A stretch of 64,000 nt of DNA from contig JAAXKQ010000004.1 of NCBI GenBank assembly GCA_025612245.1, positions 62,001 to 126,000 of the forward strand, given 5' to 3'. The notes under the pieces were generated by a model, which saw only the letters and a list, made by a program, of their open reading frames with translations, ran no database searches and had not been told where the DNA came from. Below, in pieces: positions 1 to 13,452 of the stretch. This DNA is from Ignavibacteria bacterium. Its GTDB lineage: Bacteria > Bacteroidota > Ignavibacteria > Ignavibacteriales > SURF-24. The translations under genes were made by a program, and so were the position numbers. How positions within the stretch are numbered: position 1 is the stretch's first letter; every line of letters begins with the position of its first letter.

Positions 1-195
1 AAGGTGCTGGAGGCAGTGCTGCTGATGGAAGGGGAAAACATTGATGCCTTAAATGACCTATCGGTTGTTGAAATTCTGGAGAAGAATTATTCCAAAGCGG
101 CAGAACTTTTAGAAAGGGTAATCAGCAAGGACCCATTAAATGAAGTTGCAACAGAAAATGTTCTTGCGCTTCAAAGAGAACTGGATAACCTCTAA
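1..195 (+). CDS. TPR protein, C-terminal fragment (5' end outside window)
   Basis: The reading frame is open from base 1 and ends in TAA at 193-195, so only the last 64 residues are visible. They read as one and a half tetratricopeptide repeats (ALNDLSVVEILEKNYSKAAELLERVISKDPLNEVA), the helix-turn-helix pattern with a conserved Pro after the second helix. The two genes downstream also carry TPRs, two of the next three with glycosyltransferase domains, so this may be another TPR-glycosyltransferase of the same cluster. That cannot be settled without the missing part. Confidence 0.7.
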   Translation, partial: KVLEAVLLMEGENIDALNDLSVVEILEKNYSKAAELLERVISKDPLNEVATENVLALQRELDNL

Positions 196-222
196 AATAA
201 TTACTCGGCCGGAAAAAATTCA

Positions 223-254
223 GGAGCCCTTGACAGCTTGAAGTGAAGGGCTCC
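223..254 (+). terminator. Inverted repeat after the first TPR gene
   Basis: GGAGCCCTT (223-231) pairs perfectly with AAGGGCTCC (246-254) across a 14-base loop, 28 bases after the stop of the first gene. There is no T-run behind it, so it may be a weak or factor-dependent terminator or an mRNA 3'-end stabiliser. Confidence 0.45.
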
Positions 255-328
255 AGGCCTTCCGGGTAATCCCATATATTTACAATTGCGCAATATTAGC
301 CACCCGGCGATGTCCATTTACTCATCCA

Positions 329-344
329 TGGCAAAATTTATGCC
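329..344 (+). promoter_or_regulatory. Putative sigma54 promoter of the TPR protein gene
   Basis: TGGCAAAATTTATGCC has the -24 GG (330-331) and -12 GC (342-343) elements separated by exactly 10 bases, as sigma54-RNA polymerase requires, and keeps the TGGCA core; the -12 box is ATGC rather than TTGC. It lies about 90 bases before the ATG at 434. An NtrC-family activator gene with the sigma54-contacting GAFTGA loop is in the same window (12064-13452). Confidence 0.6.
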
Positions 345-433
345 CAAAACACAACTAATTGTCACCAGAGCAGTGGCACAGCTATTGTTATAAGTTACCT
401 GACAAATATCACAAAACTTTAAAAGGTCTAGAA

Positions 434-1273
434 ATGAACCAACTGGAGACATTGTTCGGACAGGCTTACAAATTCTTTGAGCAGAAGGACTTTAACCGTG
501 CTCTTGAGACACTGGACAGTGCGGAAAACTTACTGGCGCCAGAAGACGTTGAAAACACGGCTAGTCTGCTGAACTTTAAGGGTTTCAACTATCTCGGTAT
601 GGACTCCCTCGAAAAAGCCCGTGAATGTTTTGAAAAATCTCTGAGCCTTAACCCTGCCTCCTCGCAGGCATGCGCAGGTCTGGGCGAAGTGTTCTTTTTA
701 TGCGAATACGATTATGAGGCAAAGGCCATGTATGAATGGGCCCTGGACTATAATTATGAGAACATGTTTGCCGCAAAAGGCCTGGCAAAGGTAAACATGA
801 GCCTCGGTCTGCCGGAAGATCACAACACGCTCAACCTTGAAACACTTGACTCTAAAAAGGAAAATTTCTATCACCTTATCGGTGAAGCCTACAGGCTTTT
901 TTCCGAGAGAAAATACCAGGACGTGCTCAACAAGCTTACGGAAGCAGAACTGTATTTTAACCGTAAAACTTTTAGCAGGGACTCTTCACAGAAAATATCC
1001 ACGCTTGAAAATTTCAAAGGATTTAATTACCTGGCTCTTCAGCAGCTTGAAAATGCAAAGGCTTCTTTTGAGAACTCGCTTAACCTGAATCCCAATTCCT
1101 CGCAGGCTTGTGCCGGACTTGGGGAGGTATTCTTCCTTCAGGAAATGGAAAAGGAATCCAAGACAATGTTTGAGTGGGCTGTAAAATACAACCCGTCAAA
1201 TGTATTTGCCGTCAAGGGTCTTGCAAAGGTAAATTCGGCCTTGGGATATCCTGAAACACATACAACATTATAA
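434..1273 (+). CDS. TPR protein with internal tandem duplication
   Basis: About 279 residues, all tetratricopeptide repeat. The protein consists of two units of roughly 135 residues that repeat each other: each has FKGFNYL, then SSQACAGLGEVFFL, then a GLAKVN-S-LG-PE ending. No signal peptide, membrane segment or catalytic motif is visible. I chose the ATG at 434 with AAAGG 8 bases before it; a TTG at 359 is in frame but adds 25 unrelated-looking residues. The gene sits between a sigma54-type promoter and a TPR-glycosyltransferase gene, upstream of flagellin. A protein-binding platform for flagellin or the transferases is a guess from position only. Confidence 0.8.
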   Translation: MNQLETLFGQAYKFFEQKDFNRALETLDSAENLLAPEDVENTASLLNFKGFNYLGMDSLEKARECFEKSLSLNPASSQACAGLGEVFFLCEYDYEAKAMYEWALDYNYENMFAAKGLAKVNMSLGLPEDHNTLNLETLDSKKENFYHLIGEAYRLFSERKYQDVLNKLTEAELYFNRKTFSRDSSQKISTLENFKGFNYLALQQLENAKASFENSLNLNPNSSQACAGLGEVFFLQEMEKESKTMFEWAVKYNPSNVFAVKGLAKVNSALGYPETHTTL

Positions 1274-1366
1274 GAATTACGGATGTGGTCTATGCAAAAG
1301 CTGAGGCTGAAGAAAATTGTTTAGGCCACACTTGAGTCTAATATCAAATATTTCCGGATGTAACTG

Positions 1367-4300
1367 ATGAACGACAGGTACCAGCTCGCTGTTTCATTTT
1401 TTAACGAGGGCCGATATGAGAAGGCTCAGTCTATACTGAATGAACTTCTGAAATCCAAAAGGGATAGGCAGTCTGCACTGTTTTTTCTTTCGGTTATTGA
1501 AGCCAGGACCGGAAACTTTCAGGCATCAATTGACCTGCTTAAAGAGCTCTTAAGAGCCGAGCCCCTGCATAAAGAAGCCCTTTATAACCTTGCTTTGAAC
1601 TATCAAAACCTGGAGGACTATGCCTCAGCACTCGACTGTTTCCTGAAGATGGCGGATACTTACCCGGATTTTATGCCGGCGCAGCTGAAGGCGGCACTTT
1701 TACTGCGCCAGCTTGGAAAGGCTGAGGCGGCAAAATCCCACTTCGACACGGTAATAAAAAACGACCCACTCCTGCTCAAGGAATACCTGGAAAAATTCGA
1801 TCAGCACGTTAAAGTTGAAAGCCAGCTTTTGCTCGAAAATGCAGTAAGCTTCTATGAGAATAAGGAATATCAGAAAGCCAAGGGCATTCTTTTGACTATT
1901 CTCGAAGCTGACACGAGCAACCTGCACGCGCTAAGCCTTATGGGAAGCGTCTGCTTCAGGCTGAAGGAATTTAATGAGGCCTTAGATGCCTATAACAGGC
2001 TTTTTGAGCAAAATATAAGGACGGATAACATACTCTTTAATGCAGGCCTGTGCTATCAGAGCCTTAAGAACAGTCAAAAGGCGGCCGAGCTTTACAAGTC
2101 GGCGCTGGAGGTGAATCCCAATTGCCTGGAGGCCTTAAATAACCTTGCACTCCTCTCATCATCCATCGGAAAGCACGCCGAAGCTAAGGCGCTGCTTGAA
2201 AAGGCAATAGGGGTGGATGAAAATTACCTGAATGCCAGAATCAACTTGTGCACTGTAAACGCCGATCTGAATTTATTTGAAATTACGATAAGTGACTGTG
2301 AGAGCATACTGAAAAGTGCCGAAGCAAAGGAAGACAGTTCCATAAGGGCGCTGGCCTACGGGAATGCGGGCTATGCATATTTCAGGAGCGGGAATAATAA
2401 AGAGGCAATAAAATATTTCGACCTTGCAATTGCAGAGAACCCTTTGCACCAGAATGCTCACTTCAATAAGGGGCTTGCCTTAATGCTGCAGGGTGACCTG
2501 AAGGAAGGGCTTGAAGAATACGAGTGGAGAAAACTAAGGGAAGAATGGGCAGTCAATAGAAGGGTCTTAAAGCCACTTAAAAAGGGCGTCAATCTGGAAG
2601 GAAAGACGGTGCTTGTCTTCGGGGAGCAGGGCTTAGGCGACGTGATACAGTTTTCCAGGTTTATCCCTCAGTTAAAGAAAATGAATTGCAGGATCATACT
2701 TGAGTGCGAAAAACCGCTCTGGAAAATACTGAGGCATGTTGAAGGAATTGACCAGTTTGTGGAAAGGAATTTCAGTTCTCCACCCGGGGTTCCATACGAC
2801 TATGAAGTATTCCTGATCAGTCTTCTTCTTTACCTGGATACAAGGCTGGAGGAGATTCCGGCGCCCTCTAAAATAAGCATCAGCCCGGAATACAGAGCCA
2901 GATGGTCAGATGTAATAGAAAAATTCAAGGGGCTGAAGGTTGGAATTGTATGGGCCGGTAACCCGAAGCATAACAACGACAGGAACAGGTCCTGCAGGCT
3001 GAAGGATTTTGAAGAGCTTTTTAAGCTTGAAGGAGTCACTTTCTTCAGCCTTCAGAAGGAGGACCGTAAAGGTGAGCTGCCTGAATTTAAGAGCAGTGTA
3101 GTTGACCTGAACCAGTATGGATTAAATGATTTTGAAGATACGGCAGCCGTGATAAGCTGTCTGGATCTGGTAATAACGGTAGATACGGCCGTAGCTCACC
3201 TGGCGGGCTCACTGGGAAAAGCCGTATGGATACTGGTTACATACGTTCCCGACTGGCGCTGGATGTTTGATCGAAGTGATTCCCCCTGGTATCCATCGGC
3301 CAGAATATTCAGGCAAAAGTCCATCGGCAACTGGAAGAGTGCATTTGAGGAAGTCCGTCGTGCATTGGCGGAGGGGCTTCGAAGGGAAGACAATAAAACA
3401 GAAAGTCCTGAAACAAAGAAAAAGGCATCAGAGAAAATGAATTCGAAACCATTATTCCTTTCACTTGCAACGGGTGAAAATTTCGGCTGGGGCGTGGTCA
3501 GCAGCAACCTGAGAAAAGAACTCGGGAAGATGATTGCATTTGAAGACATAAAAGGTGGCGGCACGGGCACTCTGCCGGGAAAAGTACTGCACATATTAAG
3601 GAACCATGACTTTAGCACCTCGAACGGCTACTGGGGAGAAAACAATTACGGCATGGCCGTCTTTGAAACCGAGCTTCCGAAGGAGGCAATTAAAAAAGCG
3701 CCGGACTACGACCTTGTAATTACGGCCTCAAGTTGGAACGAGGAAAAGTTAAAATCTTACGGGGTATTTAACTGTGCAACAGCCATTCAGGGGATCGACC
3801 CCGGAATGTTCTATCCTGAAGTTCAACAAAAGAAAAACGATGACCTTTTTGTGATTTTCTCCGGGGGAAAGTTCGAGCTTAGAAAAGGGCAGGATATTGT
3901 AATTGAGACTGTCAGGATACTGCAGCAGAAATACCCGGATATCATACTAATTGATGCCTGGTATAACATGTGGGCTCAAAGCATAATACCGATGAGCAAC
4001 TCAAGGCACATAAAATTTGAATGGGCAGATGGCGACTGGCCCGAGTTTATTTCTCACCTGTTAAAAATAAACGGCCTTGATATGAACAGGGTATTTTCAC
4101 TGCCGCTGGTTCCAAATGAAAAGCTGCGCGAGATTTATCTTAAGACAGATATAGGCTTATTTCCTAACAGGTGCGAGGGCGGAACCAACCTGGTGATGAT
4201 GGAATACATGGCCTGTGGCAAGCCTGTTGTTGCGTCTTATACTTCCGGGCATAAGGATGTACTGACCGAAGAATCTTCATATCCTTTAAAAGCACTTGCG

Positions 4301-4498
4301 GAGTATAAAATACTCGAACAGGCAAACGGGCTGCTAACCGTCTGGGAGGAACCTTCTCTTGATGAGGTCATAGCAGCAGTTGAATACGCCTACCATCACA
4401 GGGATGAAATACGGCAAAGAGGAATGCGCGCTGCAGAGCTTATGAAGGCTTTTACATGGAAGCATACGGCTGAGAAAATTGTACAGCTGTTAAAATAA
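1367..4498 (+). CDS. TPR protein fused to two glycosyltransferase domains
   Basis: 1043 residues in three parts. Residues about 1-390 are tetratricopeptide repeats. Residues about 410-660 form a GT-B domain of the TPR-associated GT9/heptosyltransferase-like type: FGEQGLGDVIQFSRF, then GIVWAGNPKHNNDRNRSC, then TVDTAVAHLAGSLG. Residues about 690-1043 form a second, GT4-like transferase with KFELRKGQDIVIETV and the donor-binding EGGTNLVMMEYMACGKPVV segment. There is no signal peptide, so it should act in the cytoplasm. The TPR-GT layout resembles Caulobacter FlmG, which glycosylates flagellin; being upstream of two flagellin genes, it is a good candidate for flagellin modification. The sugar and acceptor are not visible. 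The linker between the transferases (about 665-690) is Lys/Glu rich. Confidence 0.85.
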   Translation: MNDRYQLAVSFFNEGRYEKAQSILNELLKSKRDRQSALFFLSVIEARTGNFQASIDLLKELLRAEPLHKEALYNLALNYQNLEDYASALDCFLKMADTYPDFMPAQLKAALLLRQLGKAEAAKSHFDTVIKNDPLLLKEYLEKFDQHVKVESQLLLENAVSFYENKEYQKAKGILLTILEADTSNLHALSLMGSVCFRLKEFNEALDAYNRLFEQNIRTDNILFNAGLCYQSLKNSQKAAELYKSALEVNPNCLEALNNLALLSSSIGKHAEAKALLEKAIGVDENYLNARINLCTVNADLNLFEITISDCESILKSAEAKEDSSIRALAYGNAGYAYFRSGNNKEAIKYFDLAIAENPLHQNAHFNKGLALMLQGDLKEGLEEYEWRKLREEWAVNRRVLKPLKKGVNLEGKTVLVFGEQGLGDVIQFSRFIPQLKKMNCRIILECEKPLWKILRHVEGIDQFVERNFSSPPGVPYDYEVFLISLLLYLDTRLEEIPAPSKISISPEYRARWSDVIEKFKGLKVGIVWAGNPKHNNDRNRSCRLKDFEELFKLEGVTFFSLQKEDRKGELPEFKSSVVDLNQYGLNDFEDTAAVISCLDLVITVDTAVAHLAGSLGKAVWILVTYVPDWRWMFDRSDSPWYPSARIFRQKSIGNWKSAFEEVRRALAEGLRREDNKTESPETKKKASEKMNSKPLFLSLATGENFGWGVVSSNLRKELGKMIAFEDIKGGGTGTLPGKVLHILRNHDFSTSNGYWGENNYGMAVFETELPKEAIKKAPDYDLVITASSWNEEKLKSYGVFNCATAIQGIDPGMFYPEVQQKKNDDLFVIFSGGKFELRKGQDIVIETVRILQQKYPDIILIDAWYNMWAQSIIPMSNSRHIKFEWADGDWPEFISHLLKINGLDMNRVFSLPLVPNEKLREIYLKTDIGLFPNRCEGGTNLVMMEYMACGKPVVASYTSGHKDVLTEESSYPLKALAEYKILEQANGLLTVWEEPSLDEVIAAVEYAYHHRDEIRQRGMRAAELMKAFTWKHTAEKIVQLLK

Positions 4499-4606
4499 TT
4501 TTAATTCAAAGTACAGGTACTTACAATTGCGGAATATTGACCAATTCATGGGCTCGAAATTGAATGAGAAAGCGGCAATTTCGCCCCTTAACAGGTATTT
4601 TAATTG

Positions 4607-4622
4607 TGGCATATCACTTGCA
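4607..4622 (+). promoter_or_regulatory. Putative sigma54 promoter of the GT2 gene (and flagellin 1)
   Basis: TGGCATATCACTTGCA matches the sigma54 consensus TGGCAC-N5-TTGCA in both boxes, with GG (4608-4609) and GC (4620-4621) separated by 10 bases. It lies about 35 bases before the TTG start at 4658. No terminator separates the GT2 gene from the first flagellin gene, so it may drive both. Confidence 0.75.
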
Positions 4623-4657
4623 TTGTTTGTACGTGTGGAACTTAGCGGGGAAGAAGT

Positions 4658-6160
4658 TTGCCTGAACTGACATTAAGCATGATAGTAAAAAATGAGGAGA
4701 AGTATCTTCAGGGATGCCTGGATTCAGTCCGGGGGATTGCCGATGAAGTTGTGCTTGTAGATACGGGCTCAACTGACCGCACGCTTGAAATAGCAAGGAA
4801 CTACGGCGCAAAGGTTTTTCACTTTGACTGGTGTAACGACTTTTCTGCTGCAAGGAACTTTGCCCTTAAGAATTCCACCGGGCGCTGGGTACTATACCTT
4901 GATGCCGACGAGAGGCTGACAGAAAAGTCCCGTCCTTTGCTTAAAAAAATTATAAGGCAGAACTTAAAGGCAGGCTACAACTGCATTGTAAACAGCCCCG
5001 ACCGGATGACCGGAACACCGAACTACATGCGGTACCAGAGGCTGTTCTTGAACAGCCCGGATATTGAGTTCAGGGGAACAATCCACGAGCAGATTGTTGA
5101 GTCGCTCGTAGAAAAAAAATATAAAATAATTAATGCGGACATAGAGATACTGCACCTCGGGTACAACATACCGAAAGAGGAGCTGCAAGTAAAAGCCCGC
5201 AGAAACCTTGACTACCTGCTAAAGGAAATCAAGGCGAGGCCTTCTGCTTATAACGCTTTTCAGCTTGCACAGACTTATGCTGTTCTTGAGGAGAAGGAGA
5301 AGGCGGTTGAATACTTTGAGAAGACTCTTGCCTTTAATGAAGCGACTTACTTCATGAAGTCTCATGCCTGCAGGTTTATTGCCTCCTGGCTTTCTGAAGG
5401 CAACAGGCTGAAAGAGGCTCTGGAATATGGGCTTCAGGGACTCCGGTACGACAGCAGGCAGCCTCTTCTTAATATGGTCATTGCAAAAATATGCCTGAAG
5501 ATGGGCGACAGCATAAGTGCACTCAGATTCTGCCGCACTTCACTGGAGGCCAACAGGATGCCCAAGAGCAAAGACTATGAAATTTTTGTGCAGGATAAGC
5601 TGATCATATACCTGGGGCTTAAGGTTTCAGTCATGGCTGACAGCAAGCCGGAATTCAGCTACTACTTCAATGAGTTATGCCGGGTGGATAATAACGAAGC
5701 CGTATACAATGATTTTCTGAACACCGTCAGGATTCTTTTTTTGAGTGAAGGCGTTAGTGATTCCTTCCTTGAGAAGCTTGCCGGTGTTATAGATGAGAAT
5801 AATTTCGAGCTCATAATAGCACTAATAGACAGGTATATGCTGAAGCAAGACAAGTTTCAGCTTCTGGAGGCAATCCCGTCAAAATTAAGGAACAGTTTTC
5901 ACTACCTTAACTCGCTGGGCCTGTGTTATTATGAAAACGGGATGGAAAAAGAAGCGCTGGATGCATACGAGATGTCACTTGCTTACGGATTCAGGGATCC
6001 TGCTTCAGTATTCTACATGATATCGATGTACGTAAATTCAGGGGAATTTCAAAAAACTGCTGAGCTGCTTTCAAGGGCAGAGAATTCCTTCGGTTACCTT
6101 CCGGAGGTTGCAGCAAAACTTGGGATAGTAAGAAAACAAATTCAGGGATTCATAAAATAA
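4658..6160 (+). CDS. Glycosyltransferase family 2 with C-terminal TPRs
   Basis: 500 residues. The first 200 or so are a GT2 (GT-A) domain: SMIVKNEEKYLQGCLDSV, the nucleotide-binding VDTGSTDRTLEIA, NDFSAARNFAL, and the metal-binding acidic motif YLDADERL. The remaining 300 residues are helical and TPR-like (YNAFQLAQTYAVLEEKEKAVEYFEK; LNSLGLCYYENGMEKEALDAYE). This architecture includes protein glycosyltransferases such as the SunS type, so a polypeptide acceptor is plausible. I chose the TTG at 4658, with GGGGAAG before it, because it keeps the first beta strand; ATG 4679 is the alternative. It ends 36 bases before flagellin 1, which supports a role in flagellin glycosylation. Substrate is unknown. 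Confidence 0.85.
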   Translation: MPELTLSMIVKNEEKYLQGCLDSVRGIADEVVLVDTGSTDRTLEIARNYGAKVFHFDWCNDFSAARNFALKNSTGRWVLYLDADERLTEKSRPLLKKIIRQNLKAGYNCIVNSPDRMTGTPNYMRYQRLFLNSPDIEFRGTIHEQIVESLVEKKYKIINADIEILHLGYNIPKEELQVKARRNLDYLLKEIKARPSAYNAFQLAQTYAVLEEKEKAVEYFEKTLAFNEATYFMKSHACRFIASWLSEGNRLKEALEYGLQGLRYDSRQPLLNMVIAKICLKMGDSISALRFCRTSLEANRMPKSKDYEIFVQDKLIIYLGLKVSVMADSKPEFSYYFNELCRVDNNEAVYNDFLNTVRILFLSEGVSDSFLEKLAGVIDENNFELIIALIDRYMLKQDKFQLLEAIPSKLRNSFHYLNSLGLCYYENGMEKEALDAYEMSLAYGFRDPASVFYMISMYVNSGEFQKTAELLSRAENSFGYLPEVAAKLGIVRKQIQGFIK

Positions 6161-6196
6161 TTACTTTGACAGTAAATCAATTACACGGAGGTACTA

Positions 6197-7186
6197 ATGT
6201 CAACTTTTCAGATTAACACTAATATTGGTGCACTGGATGCCTACAATGCGTTGAACAAGGCAAATAGCGAAGGCATGAAGGCTCAGCTTCGCCTGGCATC
6301 AAGAAAAAGAATCAACTCGGTTGCAGACGACGTATCAGGCTACAACGTTGGTAAATCGCTTGATTCAAAAGTTCAGCTCATGAAGTCAGCTCAGAACAAC
6401 ATCGGTGCTGCAAAAAACATGCTCTCCACTGCTGAAAGTGCTCTTCAGCAGGTAAAGGACAAACTGACACAGATCAGAAGCTACGTGGCAGATGCTACTG
6501 ATCCTACAAAAGACAGAACGGCTCTTGCAGACAACATCAAGTCTTTAGGTCAGGAAATTGCAAACATAATGTACTCAACAAAGTTCAACAACACACAGCT
6601 CTTATCGGGTACAGCAGCACTTTCATCGGTAGGTTCGGGCGGCGTTGGCACGAGCGCAAACCTGGGATCACTTGCTAACTCATTTACATTCCAGACCGGT
6701 GCTGACTCTTTTGACAGAATTAACCTTGACTTTGCAAGCGGCCTTGCAAGTACCGGAAGCACTGCAATTACAAACAGCGGATTTTCTTTGTCGGTAACAA
6801 GCGACATTGCAACGGCACTGAACAGCTTCGTTTCTCTTACAACGACTGATGATGCCACTTCAGCTCAGGAAATTGCAAACCTTGCAAGCGTTACAACAAT
6901 GACCTCCGGCCAAGCCGACATATCTTCATCAATCGGAAAATTTGAGAAACTGGTTTCAGACGCATTAGGAAAGATCGGTAACTTCCAGCAGAGACTTGAT
7001 GTAAAGGACGAGTACTTGACATCAGCTATCTCTAATGCACAGTCAAGCGTAAGCCGTTTGTTTGATGCCGATATGGCAATGGAACAGCTGAATGCTACAA
7101 AGGCTCAGATAGGTTCTCAGGTAGCTACATCTATGCTAAGCCAGCTTAACTCTGCTCCTCAGAACATACTTCAGCTCTTTAAGTAA
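6197..7186 (+). CDS. fliC: Flagellin, copy 1
   Basis: 329 residues, the filament subunit. Conserved D0/D1 helices lie at both ends (STFQINTNIGALDAYNAL at the N-terminus; QSSVSRLFDADMAMEQ and SQLNSAPQNILQLFK at the C-terminus), with a short Ser/Thr-rich central domain. It has a strong ribosome site, GGAGG, 7 bases before the ATG. No sigma28-type promoter is visible directly upstream, unlike copy 2, so it is probably transcribed with the GT2 gene. It ends in a hairpin terminator at 7213-7250. It differs from copy 2 by about 30 residues without any gap. Confidence 0.97.
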   Translation: MSTFQINTNIGALDAYNALNKANSEGMKAQLRLASRKRINSVADDVSGYNVGKSLDSKVQLMKSAQNNIGAAKNMLSTAESALQQVKDKLTQIRSYVADATDPTKDRTALADNIKSLGQEIANIMYSTKFNNTQLLSGTAALSSVGSGGVGTSANLGSLANSFTFQTGADSFDRINLDFASGLASTGSTAITNSGFSLSVTSDIATALNSFVSLTTTDDATSAQEIANLASVTTMTSGQADISSSIGKFEKLVSDALGKIGNFQQRLDVKDEYLTSAISNAQSSVSRLFDADMAMEQLNATKAQIGSQVATSMLSQLNSAPQNILQLFK

Positions 7187-7212
7187 TTAGACATTTAAGG
7201 AGTTCTTATTTG

Positions 7213-7250
7213 AGGCACGCCTGCTTGAAAAAAGGCGTGCCTTTGTATTT
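7213..7250 (+). terminator. Rho-independent terminator after flagellin 1
   Basis: AGGCACGCC (7213-7221) pairs with GGCGTGCCT (7234-7242) across a 12-base loop and is followed by a T-rich stretch. It separates the two flagellin genes into different transcripts. Confidence 0.85.
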
Positions 7251-7321
7251 TAAATCCTTGTGTTTATACTCTTTACCGGTCTCTATGAAAAAAATATAAT
7301 TATTAAAAATATTTTTAGTAC

Positions 7322-7348
7322 TAAACTTTTACCCCGGGGTGCCGATAG
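7322..7348 (+). promoter_or_regulatory. Sigma28 (FliA) promoter of flagellin 2
   Basis: TAAACTTT (7322-7329), 11 bases, then GCCGATAG (7341-7348). This is the flagellar sigma28 consensus TAAAGTTT-N11-GCCGATAA with one change in each box and the exact spacing. It implies a leader of about 90 bases before the ATG at 7445. The leader contains a small hairpin, CGGGC (7394-7398) with GCCCG (7405-7409). Confidence 0.85.
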
Positions 7349-7444
7349 TAATATTGAGAATTAGATCTCATTTAATTTAAATTCAAACCAACGCGGGCAC
7401 GGACGCCCGTAAAAGAAAACAGACAAAATACATGGAGGTATTTT

Positions 7445-8434
7445 ATGTCAACTTTTCAGATTAACACTAATATTGGCGCATTAAACGCCTACAATGCTCT
7501 TAACAAAGCAAACGCTGAAACTCAGAACGCTCAGCTTCGTCTTGCAACAAGAAAAAGAATCAACTCGGTTGCAGACGACGTATCAGGCTACAACGTTGGT
7601 AAATCGCTTGATTCAAAAGTTCAGCTCATGAAGTCAGCTCAGAACAACATCGGTGCTGCAAAAAACATGCTCTCCACTGGTGAAAGTGCTCTTCAGCAGG
7701 TAAAGGACAAACTGACACAGATCAGAAGCTATATAGCAGATGCTACTGATCCTACAAAAGACAGAACGGCTCTTGGAGACAACATCAAGTCTTTAGGTCA
7801 GGAAATTGCAAGTATTTTTTATTCTGCGAAGTTCAACAATACCCAGATTTTGTCTGGTACAACGGCTCTTTCATCGGTAGGTTCGGGCGGTGTTGGTTAT
7901 TCAGCAAACCTGGGATCACTTGCTAACTCATTTACATTCCAGACCGGTGCTGACTCTGGCGACAGAATTAACCTTGACTTTGCAAGCGGCCTTGCAAGTG
8001 CTGGTGGTACATCAATTACAAACAGCGGATTCTCGCTTTCAGTTGCTTCCGACATTGCAACGGCACTGAACAGCTTCGCTTCTCTTACAACGACTGATGA
8101 TGCTACCTCAGCTCAGGAAATTGCAAACCTTGCAAGCGTTACTTCGATGACTTCAGGCAAGGCTGATGTGTCTTCGACTTTGGGTAAGTTCGAAAAATTA
8201 GTCACAGACGCATTAGGAAAGATTGGTAACTTCCAGCAGAGACTTGATGTAAAGGACGAGTACTTGACATCAGCTATCTCTAATGCACAGTCAAGCGTAA
8301 GCCGTTTGTTTGATGCCGATATGGCAATGGAACAGCTGAATGCTACAAAGGCTCAGATAGGTTCTCAGGTAGCTACATCTATGCTAAGCCAGCTTAACTC
8401 TGCTCCTCAGAACGTTCTTCAGCTCTTTAGGTAA
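7445..8434 (+). CDS. fliC: Flagellin, copy 2
   Basis: 329 residues, same length and layout as copy 1, with about 91 percent identical residues by eye. The ribosome site is GGAGG, 7 bases before the ATG. Differences cluster in residues 24-30 and in the central Ser/Thr-rich domain (about 120-255), while long stretches of DNA at both ends are identical to copy 1. It has its own sigma28-type promoter and is followed by a perfect 11-bp hairpin. It is therefore probably the late, major filament subunit; copy 1 may be expressed earlier or at lower level. Confidence 0.97.
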   Translation: MSTFQINTNIGALNAYNALNKANAETQNAQLRLATRKRINSVADDVSGYNVGKSLDSKVQLMKSAQNNIGAAKNMLSTGESALQQVKDKLTQIRSYIADATDPTKDRTALGDNIKSLGQEIASIFYSAKFNNTQILSGTTALSSVGSGGVGYSANLGSLANSFTFQTGADSGDRINLDFASGLASAGGTSITNSGFSLSVASDIATALNSFASLTTTDDATSAQEIANLASVTSMTSGKADVSSTLGKFEKLVTDALGKIGNFQQRLDVKDEYLTSAISNAQSSVSRLFDADMAMEQLNATKAQIGSQVATSMLSQLNSAPQNVLQLFR

Positions 8435-8547: not shown

Positions 8548-8898
8548 ATGTATAGCACAGCTTACGCGCGTCCGGGTTTCAATAAGGCTAACCAGTACCT
8601 GGCTAAGGAAATACTTGAGGCAACGCCACAGCAGCTTTTGATTAAAATTTATGATTTTGCCATTGTAAACTGCCAGAAGCACGATCTGGTCAGGACAAAC
8701 AATGCCATTCAGGAACTCATAAATTCGCTCAGTTTCGAAGGTCCGGATGTAAAAGAAATTTCTACTGGTCTGCTGCGTCTTTACAAGTTTTGCCAGGATC
8801 AGATGAGATCTCAGAATTATGAAATAGTGCAGAAAATTCTCTCCGAGCTCAGGGATACCTGGATCAGTACGTTTGAAAAAGTAAAAATGGTGAAATAA
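8548..8898 (+). CDS. fliS: Flagellar export chaperone FliS
   Basis: 116 residues, the usual FliS size. The N-terminal YARPGFNKANQYLAKEILEATPQQLLIKIYDFAIVNC matches the family pattern (Y-x-x-N/Q-Y, then T-P-x-x-L-x-x-x-L-Y-D-G/F). FliS holds the flagellin C-terminus in the cytoplasm until export. It lies between flagellin and fliD, the standard order. Confidence 0.93.
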   Translation: MYSTAYARPGFNKANQYLAKEILEATPQQLLIKIYDFAIVNCQKHDLVRTNNAIQELINSLSFEGPDVKEISTGLLRLYKFCQDQMRSQNYEIVQKILSELRDTWISTFEKVKMVK

Positions 8899-8937: not shown

Positions 8938-10395
8938 ATGGCAGTCGATGCATTAACAAGTTCAGGCATAGATTCTCTGGTAAGCAGTTATACTGCTTCA
9001 GAACAGAGCAGAATGATAACTCCGCTTACCACGAGGAAAAGCAGCTACGAAAGCAAGATTTCGACATACTCAACTTTAAGTTCAAAGCTCGATTCGCTTA
9101 AATCTTTAATAAGCGACCTTAAGGCTACCGGCAGCAGTTCGCTTTTTGTACCGTCGATGACTGCCACGCTATCCAACAGCTCATTTATGTCCGTGTCGGC
9201 TACGTCAAAGGCCACCGCGGGCTCCTATACAATGCGCGTCCAGCAGCTGGCAAAAAACGACATTACAGTCTCAAAGCAGGATGCATCCTCGGCTGCAAAG
9301 CTTGCAAACGGGACTTATAATTTCCAGATAGTGTCCGGGGGGACTACAAAAGACGTAAGTGTGACAATTGACGACACTGTTACGGATTTCAAAGGCTCTC
9401 TGCAGAAAATTAAGGATGCCATTAATTCGCAGGCTTCGGAGGTTGTTTCGGCGGCTGCATTTTCACCCGACAGCAGTACGAGCAGGCTTTCAATGACGGC
9501 AAAAAATATGGGGCAGGATAACCGTATTATTCTTCAGCAGAAGGATTCAACGAGCTCGGAAGTGCTGAGCTATCTCGGCTACTCTCTGAATTCCGGAACG
9601 CCAGCTCAGGTAGAGCGCGACACGACGGTAAGCGACGGATCCTCGGGCTACATATACGACAGCTCCTCGTTAAACGCCAAGTTTAATTTCAACGGGCTCG
9701 ACTTCCAGAGAAATTCAAACACCATCAATGACGTTGTTGACGGGCTTACCTTTACGCTGACCTCGGAGATGAAGGACACTGATGCGAACGTTAATATTTC
9801 AGTTTCAGGCTCTACATCTTCGGTGCGGTCGAAAATTGAAAACTTTGTCACAAAGTTCAACGAAATTTATTACTATCTCAAGACCAACAGCTCAACTACA
9901 ACCACTTCGCGCGGTGCCTTGGCCGGGGACGCTACGACAAATTCACTTTTGCAGAGCATGACGCAGGCGGCTTATACGAGGGTAGACGGCTTGTCTTCTG
10001 ACAAACCCAACAGGCTGGGAGACCTCGGTATATCATTTACAGCCACCGGGGGGCTGAGCATATCGGACAGCGCGAAACTCGACAGCAAGATTGCAAATAA
10101 CTTAGGTGATGTGGAAGCGATATTTAACTCCACAAACGGAATTGCCACAACACTTTACGGTCAGCTCGACCGCTATCTTGGAACCGAGGGATACCTGGCA
10201 AAGGCGAACGAATCCTATTCCAACACAGTAAGCGACCTGGCCTCTAAGATTACAGCCAAGCAGGCAAGTATAGATAAAAGTGCCGAGGTACTAAGGAGCA
10301 AGTATGAAGCGCTCCAGACCCAGCTTGCAAGTTTGCTGACAACTTCCAGCTGGTACAGCGGCAGTTCATCAACAGATACAACGAGCTATTTCTAA
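8938..10395 (+). CDS. fliD: Flagellar hook-associated protein 2 (filament cap)
   Basis: 485 residues. The N-terminal segment (ALTSSGIDSLVSSYTASEQSRMITPLTTRKSSYESKISTYSTLSSKLDSLKS) is the FliD N-domain, and the C-terminal region (about 230-470) is the FliD C-domain ending in a coiled coil (KITAKQASIDKSAEVLRSKYEALQTQLA). The protein caps the growing filament and is secreted by the flagellar export system, so it has no Sec signal peptide. It is Ser/Thr rich as is usual for this family. Confidence 0.95.
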   Translation: MAVDALTSSGIDSLVSSYTASEQSRMITPLTTRKSSYESKISTYSTLSSKLDSLKSLISDLKATGSSSLFVPSMTATLSNSSFMSVSATSKATAGSYTMRVQQLAKNDITVSKQDASSAAKLANGTYNFQIVSGGTTKDVSVTIDDTVTDFKGSLQKIKDAINSQASEVVSAAAFSPDSSTSRLSMTAKNMGQDNRIILQQKDSTSSEVLSYLGYSLNSGTPAQVERDTTVSDGSSGYIYDSSSLNAKFNFNGLDFQRNSNTINDVVDGLTFTLTSEMKDTDANVNISVSGSTSSVRSKIENFVTKFNEIYYYLKTNSSTTTTSRGALAGDATTNSLLQSMTQAAYTRVDGLSSDKPNRLGDLGISFTATGGLSISDSAKLDSKIANNLGDVEAIFNSTNGIATTLYGQLDRYLGTEGYLAKANESYSNTVSDLASKITAKQASIDKSAEVLRSKYEALQTQLASLLTTSSWYSGSSSTDTTSYF

Positions 10396-11353: not shown

Positions 11354-12067
11354 ATGATGATGATGCATAACGAAATACAGGACAATAAACTTCAGATTTT
11401 AGGTAAATTGGCTGCCAGTCTGGCTCACGAGATCCGAAACCCGCTTTCGGCAATTAAACTTAATCTCGATTTTGTAAGCATGTCCGACATATCTGATGAG
11501 GTAAAGGAATCCATTACGGCATGCATGGAAGCCGCAAAAAGGATCCAGACGATTGTAGAGACCACGCTCGATTTTTCCCGCAGCACGCTCAGCGATTGTT
11601 ATCCGCAGTCGTTAAATGAGGTTATCGGTCTTGCGGTGGAAATAATGAGCGCAAGGGCCAAGATACTGAATATTGAGATTTTAACAGTTCTGGAACAGGG
11701 CCTGCCCACGGTTTACTTTAACAAGAATAAGATACTTCAGGTGGTGTTGAACTTAATGACCAACGCTTTTGAAGCGATTGAAAAAAATGGAACTGTAAGC
11801 ATAAAAACATATCGTGAAACATTGGAAGGGAATAATTTTGTTACGCTGGAGGTTCAGGATACAGGCGGGGGAATCAGCGATGAGAACAAGGAAATGATAT
11901 TTAATGATTTTTATACTAACAAAAAAGAAGGAACCGGCCTGGGCCTGAGCGTATGCCGTTCCATTCTGGACGAATTTGGCGCCACGATCGGTTTCGATTC
12001 GCGACTGGGAGAGGGCAGCCGTTTTTACGTGAGATTTAATCCTAATATAAATGGTGTGATAGAATGA
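11354..12067 (+). CDS. Cytoplasmic sensor histidine kinase without sensor domain (FlgS/FleS-like)
   Basis: 237 residues. The dimerisation and phosphorylation box ASLAHEIRNPLSAIKL (His25) lies almost at the N-terminus, followed by the N-box NLMTNAFEAIEKNG, G1 DTGGGI and G2 GTGLGLSV. There is no membrane segment or PAS domain. It overlaps the next gene, a sigma54 activator, by 4 bases, so the two form a cognate pair of the FlgSR/FleSR type that switches on flagellar sigma54 genes. The start is a run of ATG codons at 11354; the ribosome site is weak. Confidence 0.88.
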   Translation: MMMMHNEIQDNKLQILGKLAASLAHEIRNPLSAIKLNLDFVSMSDISDEVKESITACMEAAKRIQTIVETTLDFSRSTLSDCYPQSLNEVIGLAVEIMSARAKILNIEILTVLEQGLPTVYFNKNKILQVVLNLMTNAFEAIEKNGTVSIKTYRETLEGNNFVTLEVQDTGGGISDENKEMIFNDFYTNKKEGTGLGLSVCRSILDEFGATIGFDSRLGEGSRFYVRFNPNINGVIE

Positions 12068-13452
12068 AGTTAAACGTACTAATTGTTGATGATGATAATT
12101 TAATATGCATGTCGCTGAAGAAGGTTTTGGTTAAGATGGGTTATGAGGTGGAAACCTGCATGGAAGGCGAAAAGGTGCTTGAGACGGTTGCCGATTTTCA
12201 GCCCGACGTGATCCTGCTGGATATCTATCTGACGAGTCATAACGGCCTGGATATACTGAAGCTGCTTCAAAAGGAGTTTTACCAGATACCGGTGGTTATG
12301 ATTACGGGGTATTCCGACGTCAAGATAGCGGTTTCGGCTATGAAAGCCGGCGCCTTTGACTTTCTGCTCAAGCCTATAGACCTCGAGCAGCTGCAGATTG
12401 TTCTTGAAAAATGCACGGAGCACCTCAAACTCAAGTCAGAGGTCGAGAAGCTGCACTCTCTCATAAAGGAAGATGAAATAAGCAGGGAATTTTTCGGAAG
12501 AAGCAAATCGATAGTACGTGTTATTAACTCGGTTGAAAGGCTGGCACAGAGCGGTGATACGACAATACTGCTCGAAGGGGAAAGCGGTACGGGTAAGGAA
12601 GTCTTTGCAAAGTTTATACATCAACAGAGCCCCCGCAAGAATAACGCCTTTATCTCAATAAACTGTGCCGCAATTCCGAAGGAGCTGGCAGAAAGCGAGC
12701 TTTTCGGGCACGAAAAAGGTGCCTTTACGGGAGCGGCGCAGAAGACCAAGCTCGGGAAATTCGAGCTCGCAGACGGCGGTACAATTTTACTCGATGAAAT
12801 CGGCGAGCTGTCGCTGGACCTTCAGGTAAAGCTCCTGAGGGTGCTCCAGGAAAGGACGTTCTACCGTCTTGGAGGCGAGAAGGAAATTTCAGTTAACGTA
12901 AGGGTTGTTGCCGCCACGAACAGGAACCTTGAAGAGGAAATCAGGAAGGGAAACTTCAGGGAGGACCTCTATTACCGTCTTAACGTTGCAAAGGTAGTCA
13001 TTCCGCCGCTGCGTGAAAGGAAGGAGGACATTGCGATACTGGCATACAGTTTCCTGCGCGAATTTGAAGTGAAATTCAACAAGAAAATAAAGGGTATGGA
13101 TGACGACGCGCTGACATTTCTTGAAGACCAGTACTGGAAAGGAAACGTCAGAGAGCTTAGGAACACCATTGAACGCGCCGTACTGATGCTCGACGGAGAT
13201 GAATTAAAAGAGCAGCACTTCAGCTTTCTGTCTTCAGGCAAAAGTCCTGTTGCAGATGACGACAAGTTCATTTTGAAGATCCCCTCCAAGGGGGTAGGCA
13301 TAGACCTTGTGCTGAGGACTCTAATTCTCAAGACTCTCGATATAACAAAAGGCAACCAGGTAAAAGCTGCAAAAATTTTGGGCCTTTCCCGCTCTAAACT
13401 GCGCTACAGGATGGAACAACTGGAAATTGAAGTGACAAAGAAAATTGAGTAG
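12064..13452 (+). CDS. NtrC-family sigma54-dependent response regulator (FlgR/FleR-like)
   Basis: 462 residues with the full three-domain layout. Residues 1-120 are a receiver with acidic pocket VDDD and phospho-acceptor Asp53. Residues about 142-380 are the AAA+ domain with Walker A GESGTGKE (172-179), the sigma54-contacting GAFTGA loop (219-224) and Walker B GGTILLDEIGEL. The C-terminus is a Fis-type helix-turn-helix (KAAKILGLSRSKLRYRMEQ). All residues needed for sigma54 activation are present. Located between flgM and further motility genes, it probably drives the sigma54-type promoters at 329, 4607 and 25989. Confidence 0.92.
   Translation: MKLNVLIVDDDNLICMSLKKVLVKMGYEVETCMEGEKVLETVADFQPDVILLDIYLTSHNGLDILKLLQKEFYQIPVVMITGYSDVKIAVSAMKAGAFDFLLKPIDLEQLQIVLEKCTEHLKLKSEVEKLHSLIKEDEISREFFGRSKSIVRVINSVERLAQSGDTTILLEGESGTGKEVFAKFIHQQSPRKNNAFISINCAAIPKELAESELFGHEKGAFTGAAQKTKLGKFELADGGTILLDEIGELSLDLQVKLLRVLQERTFYRLGGEKEISVNVRVVAATNRNLEEEIRKGNFREDLYYRLNVAKVVIPPLRERKEDIAILAYSFLREFEVKFNKKIKGMDDDALTFLEDQYWKGNVRELRNTIERAVLMLDGDELKEQHFSFLSSGKSPVADDDKFILKIPSKGVGIDLVLRTLILKTLDITKGNQVKAAKILGLSRSKLRYRMEQLEIEVTKKIE

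Follow-up and report, generated by a model that had tools for sequence, protein, structure and literature searches.

A block of TPR proteins and glycosyltransferases upstream of flagellin in Ignavibacteria: very likely the flagellin-proximal end of a flagellin O-glycosylation island

The window analyzed in this study was a stretch of 64,000 nucleotides of genome G000 (contig C36, 62001–126000). Its first 195 bases are the final codons of a 2162-aa protein encoded at L005:12708–19196, so the window begins in the middle of a gene island. The features of the flagellin-proximal part were as follows:

1..195, forward strand: C-terminal TPR end of the 2162-aa protein with GT4, five GT2 and TPR (ORFs, Pfam, module HMMs); the protein starts at L005:12708, 6294 bases before the window
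280..302, forward strand: first copy of a 23-bp element, TTACAATTGCGCAATATTAGCCA, candidate activator site
374..389, forward strand: sigma-54-like −24/−12 site ahead of the TPR gene, TGGCACAGCTATTGTT, with partial conservation in the sister species
434..1273, forward strand: TPR protein, 279 aa (Pfam); most islands of the order encode relatives, frequently in more than one copy
1367..4498, forward strand: TPR, GT9-like and GT4 protein, 1043 aa (ORF, Pfam, model)
2522..3382, forward strand: GT9-like GT-B domain of this protein, with the invariant GD motif and a D-T-x(3)-H motif
4521..4543, forward strand: second copy of the 23-bp element, TTACAATTGCGGAATATTGACCA, candidate activator site
4607..4622, forward strand: sigma-54-like site ahead of the GT2-TPR gene, TGGCATATCACTTGCA, also conserved in the sister species
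4658..6160, forward strand: GT2 and TPR protein, GmaR-like, 500 aa (ORF, Pfam, PDB sequence match)
6197..7186, forward strand: flagellin 1, 329 aa, with both flagellin domains (Pfam), starting 36 bases after the GT2-TPR gene
7322..7348, forward strand: sigma-28-like promoter of flagellin 2, TAAACTTT-N11-GCCGATAG, with conservation in the sister species
7445..8434, forward strand: flagellin 2, 329 aa, with both flagellin domains (Pfam)
8548..8898, forward strand: fliS, flagellin export chaperone (Pfam)
8938..10395, forward strand: fliD, filament cap (Pfam)
11354..13452, forward strand: putative histidine kinase and NtrC-family regulator, assigned from sequence and retained downstream of fliD across the order

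For the 279-aa TPR protein, the ATG at 434 was a likelier start than the TTG at 359, because the sister-species orthologue starts at the same ATG. The positions of the ORFs and Pfam matches confirmed what the preliminary description had claimed, namely a run of TPR genes, two of them with glycosyltransferase (GT) domains, leading into two flagellin genes, and no unrelated gene was found between 434 and the flagellin genes. The middle region of the flagellins contained 24–47% Ser/Thr versus 15–22% elsewhere, in a comparison that includes no unglycosylated flagellin, and such a Ser/Thr-rich region would be compatible with O-glycosylation.

Within the window, the 23-bp element TTACAATTGCGSAATATTRRCCA occurred only in the two copies above when up to three mismatches were allowed (0 expected). 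Its 17-base core had exactly two perfect matches on the contigs of G000 (contig C7 left out) and two matches in the sister species, at equivalent places. Each copy lies 60–75 bases ahead of a sigma-54-like site, before the two TPR/GT operons. The site at 4607–4622 was nearly identical in the sister species amid diverged DNA, and that at 374–389 was partly so. Since matches to the sigma-54 consensus in the whole window were not above chance, the weight of the two sites comes only from their position, their conservation and the shared 23-bp element. The kinase/NtrC pair at 11354–13452 is the obvious candidate for the activator of these putative promoters.

The 500-aa protein encoded at 4658–6160 possessed a GT2 domain (PF00535, 89 bits) followed by TPRs. 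Its best PDB match by sequence was GmaR (22ao; phmmer E 1.4e-32, profile E 1.4e-53), followed by SunS (E 1.7e-24) and ThuS (7msk), and the profile matched the GmaR TPR structure 7x9r more weakly (E 2.5e-20). For the predicted model (pLDDT 90), SunS and ThuS were the closest full structural matches (Z 25.5–23.5, rmsd 2.6–2.9, about 275 residues). These two enzymes likewise combine GT2 with TPR, but they catalyze cysteine S-glycosylation of bacteriocin peptides, whereas the neighbours here are flagellin genes. Moreover, the protein scored 91.3 bits against the SunS model TIGR04195, far below the cut-off of 350. With an intact N-terminal GT2 domain, TPRs behind it and GmaR as the closest relative, the protein was of the GmaR type, and it is probably the priming flagellin glycosyltransferase. 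GmaR of Listeria monocytogenes transfers GlcNAc to flagellin, its characterised acceptor, and flagellin recognition has been proposed for its TPR domain (PMC9638930). GT2-TPR proteins of Clostridium have also been proposed as flagellin transferases (PMC13317340). In contrast, GmaR has 637 aa, 137 more than the protein described here, which furthermore belongs to a large multi-GT island.

GmaR is bifunctional, being both the flagellin O-GlcNAc transferase and the MogR antirepressor (PMC9638930). By analogy with its antirepressor half, the GmaR-like and TPR proteins might chiefly regulate flagellar transcription, with transferase activity secondary. However, the motifs DTGS-D, DADE and HEQ were invariant across 15 GT2-TPR relatives, and the islands of the order carried 3–15 GT modules each, well beyond regulatory need; a mainly regulatory role is extremely improbable.

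The 1043-aa protein encoded at 1367–4498 consisted of TPRs (residues 1–385), the GT9-like domain (386–672) and a GT4 domain (690–1043, PF00534). The isolated GT9-like domain scored 24.0 bits with PF01075 (cut-off 22) and had the GT9 fold, as expected of a GT9 member. The fold was predicted, because phmmer against the PDB gave nothing useful for this domain. Among 19 copies of the domain, the GD motif was invariant and DT-x(3)-H nearly invariant. The model of residues 131–680 had a pLDDT of 90.9, and the best structural match of the domain was 3tov (Z 19.3, rmsd 3.2, 252 aligned), followed by WaaF (Z 17.9), WaaC (17.6) and TibC (17.4), with rmsd values of 3.1–3.8 over 241–252 residues for the four. 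GT9 heptosyltransferases and TibC thus share the fold and both motifs with it, and TibC puts heptose on a protein (an autotransporter). However, the domain here is fused to TPRs and GT4, and heptose-type genes occur in the G000 island but not in that of the sister species. In a Foldseek search with the whole model, SPINDLY and OGT were among the best matches, together with designed TPR proteins. Both combine a TPR superhelix with GT-B, although the catalytic domain here was closest to GT9 and no Pfam GT41 was among the matches listed. FlmG of Caulobacter is similar by architecture, as a soluble TPR and GT-B protein with a proposed action on flagellin (PMC7591256), but it uses nonulosonic (pseudaminic) acid, and the GT4 domain is an addition of the present protein. 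SunS and FlmG had been suggested as analogues in the preliminary description; better analogues are GmaR for the GT2-TPR protein and GT9 enzymes, TibC, SPINDLY and OGT for the TPR-GT-B protein. The copy number of the TPR-GT9 unit varied, and G036 encoded a three-unit protein (L049:6808–11916) and a two-unit protein (L050:250–3171).

Upstream of the window, the gene run continued. In the order on L005, a fused nucleotidyltransferase/PfkB kinase (HldE-like, with the domain order reversed) was followed by an SIS-domain GmhA-like isomerase. Next came a B12-type radical SAM protein, a GT2 and another radical SAM protein, then a 438-aa protein that matched no Pfam family and an asparagine synthetase. 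A 951-aa fusion of GT and TylF-methyltransferase preceded the 2162-aa protein. The B12-type and the ordinary radical SAM proteins flank the GT2 inside the flagellin island (L005:2981–6612). The divergent fused kinase and the GmhA-like isomerase (L005:848–2988) are additional to a canonical rfaE on contig C18, and similar fused nucleotidyltransferase/PfkB ORFs were observed in G007 and G019. The earlier statement that the window has no sugar-nucleotide genes holds, but the HldE-like and GmhA-like genes belong to the same gene run, about 18 kb further upstream. According to module HMMs, the whole G000 island contained 12 GT modules, an approximate count because one domain match in two pieces may count twice. 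The largest protein noted in a flagellin island was one of 4710 aa in G037 (L037:638–14770). In Pfam it matched GT2 seven times and GT4 and a GT9-type family once each, and it also had methyltransferase and TPR domains.

In the sister species (G001), both flanks and the flagellin-proximal genes were kept, whereas the upstream part was different; it encoded proteins of 1106, 1266, 2260 and 919 aa and did not contain the heptose-type pair. Kept flanks and a differing upstream part are the pattern of a variable glycosylation island, and the locus accordingly presents what defines a flagellin glycosylation island: a variable GT/sugar block joined to flagellin between conserved flanks. A version of the locus 75% identical to that of the window was present on contig C7 of the G000 assembly (C7:1–18426, L007). 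It was rejected as a second copy in the same genome, since it was 96–99% identical to the single locus of G001, and C7 is most likely a mis-binned contig of the sister species.

Polysaccharide loci typically contain such genes as those for GT9, GT4 and GT2 enzymes, methyltransferases and the HldE-like/GmhA-like pair, and a canonical rfaE domain II gene, for ordinary heptose synthesis, was present elsewhere in the genome in 39/39 genomes of the order. Such features would suit genes that make a cell-surface polysaccharide (LPS core, O-antigen or exopolysaccharide) and adjoin flagellin by chance or through shared regulation. However, Pfam matched no polyprenyl-phosphate transferase, flippase, polymerase or transporter among the G000 island proteins scanned. 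In addition, a simple hydropathy scan, at the threshold applied, predicted no transmembrane segment in the GT-bearing island ORFs, while FliR/FliP-type controls gave 6 and 5. GT ORFs without predicted membrane helices and an island without matches to lipid-carrier genes favour direct protein glycosylation in the cytoplasm before export. Direct glycosylation of the protein before export is also the mode of the Maf, FlmG and GmaR systems.

As for the sugar, heptose was considered as the general one and was not supported, because the HldE-like/GmhA-like pair of G000 was absent from the sister island and canonical rfaE was found in all 39 genomes. A Maf-family gene (PF01973) was found in 0/39 order genomes, by a search in which the matched control genomes were archaeal, so that its sensitivity to bacterial Maf is uncertain. 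A NeuB-family gene (308 bits) was located at G000:C12:53975–54691, unlinked to the island; G000 may possibly synthesize nonulosonic acid, perhaps as a donor.

The linkage to flagellin was studied in the order sample of 39 genomes, 29 with flagellin and 10 without. The order-wide gene order was multi-module GTs, TPR, GT2-TPR and TPR-GT9 (in either order), flagellin, fliD, kinase and NtrC-type regulator. The GmaR-like gene was found in 28/29 flagellin genomes versus 0/10 others (Fisher p 1.7e-8, relatedness ignored), within 5 kb of flagellin in 21/28 and within 20 kb in 25/28, which gives this GmaR-type gene a genetic linkage to flagellin. It was most often directly upstream of flagellin, with the GT2 domain about 0.9–1.1 kb away. 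A strong relative of the TPR-GT9-GT4 protein (150 bits or more) was present in 13/39 genomes, and all 13 kept a TPR-GT9 copy, represented in G004 by its GT4 part, no more than 4.5 kb from flagellin. The gene occurred in 13/29 flagellin genomes versus 0/10 flagellin-less ones (p 0.016, relatedness ignored). In G014 (C44, L044) and G005 (C39, L045), the islands were split: the sole GmaR-like gene and giant GTs were on flagellin-less contigs, and another TPR-GT9 gene remained beside flagellin. Homologues that normally lie away from flagellar genes and beside polysaccharide genes had been named beforehand as the finding that would count against a flagellin role, and within the order this was seen for neither gene.

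Furthermore, in a phylum sample of 198 genomes, the GmaR-like gene was detected in 27/49 flagellin genomes versus 0/149 others (p 3e-20, relatedness ignored). All 27 belonged to the class, where 27/30 flagellin genomes were positive and the gene was not found in the other three. The adjacency in 13/13 genomes and the absence of the GmaR-like gene from every flagellin-less genome sampled do not fit genes for a surface polysaccharide, and we regard that explanation as very improbable. Outside the class, the TPR-GT9 family was widespread and common in flagellum-less bacteria, including cyanobacteria, usually away from flagellin; in a wide scan, flagellin was present at 8 of 79 named TPR-GT9 loci, among them those of Ignavibacteriaceae, Melioribacter, Scalindua (Planctomycetes) and Geobacteraceae. 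A TPR-GT9 gene alone is therefore not diagnostic of flagellin glycosylation, judging from these genomes. This distribution, the split islands of G014 and G005 and the three class genomes with flagellin in which no GmaR-like gene was found speak against the flagellin reading. In another phylum, the locus of Candidatus Scalindua (L059) repeated this arrangement, with a TPR-GT9 gene, then two GmaR-like genes, then flagellin.

The acceptor might be a different exported protein of the flagellum, such as FliD, a hook protein or a hook-associated one, instead of or besides flagellin, as fliD is likewise kept beside the island. However, the GmaR-like gene is mostly directly upstream of flagellin and its characterised relative GmaR modifies flagellin (PMC9638930), so such an acceptor is likewise very improbable. 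We infer flagellin as the acceptor, and likewise the order of the enzymes, the sugars and the role of the TPRs. Taken as a whole, the window very likely holds that end of a flagellin O-glycosylation island which adjoins the flagellin genes. Since the same genes adjoin flagellin throughout the relatives, the filament is very probably glycosylated, inside the cell before export. The proposal of the preliminary description that the gene set glycosylates flagellin gained strong support from this comparison, through the GmaR match and the linkage to flagellin.

In the proposed mechanism, the GmaR-like GT2-TPR enzyme would bind newly made flagellin in the cytoplasm and add the first sugar, perhaps N-acetylglucosamine, to its Ser/Thr residues. 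The TPR-GT9-like-GT4 protein, the upstream multi-module GT4/GT2/TPR proteins and the methyltransferase fusion would then extend or decorate the glycan, while the TPRs may bind the acceptor or link the enzymes to one another. FliS would carry the glycosylated flagellin to the export gate. A more far-reaching version is a soluble assembly line, in which tandem GT modules on TPR proteins (up to 4710 aa) and TPR-GT9 proteins carrying the catalytic unit one to three times would build a long oligosaccharide on flagellin without a lipid carrier, and the number and order of modules would predict the length and sequence of the glycan. This version is doubtful, and we put it forward tentatively.

In the flagellin islands known from Clostridium, Geobacillus, C. 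difficile type B and Aeromonas, flagellin similarly adjoins a block of variable content, made up of GT, methyltransferase and sugar genes. The present islands differ from them in multi-module GT proteins of 2000–4700 aa with TPRs and in the lack of a Maf-family match in the order. Multi-domain flagellin GT proteins also have a precedent, namely a single enzyme of C. difficile type B that adds two rhamnoses and bioinformatically has a methyltransferase domain (PMC5207246). The literature search returned nothing relevant, either for Ignavibacteria and the glycosylation of their flagellin or for flagellin glycosyltransferases with several domains.

The kind of system is therefore already known, and what is new is the near-universal link to flagellin in the class, the TPR-GT9-GT4 fusions and the giant multi-module GT proteins. 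The result adds to the range of GmaR-type flagellin glycosylation a whole class of environmental bacteria, for which none was described in the literature searched and in which the gene of the GmaR-like transferase is almost as universal as flagellin. Moreover, the multi-module enzymes make it possible to test whether the genomic order of GT modules reveals the glycan of a protein, and they may yield soluble tools with which glycans can be assembled on proteins.
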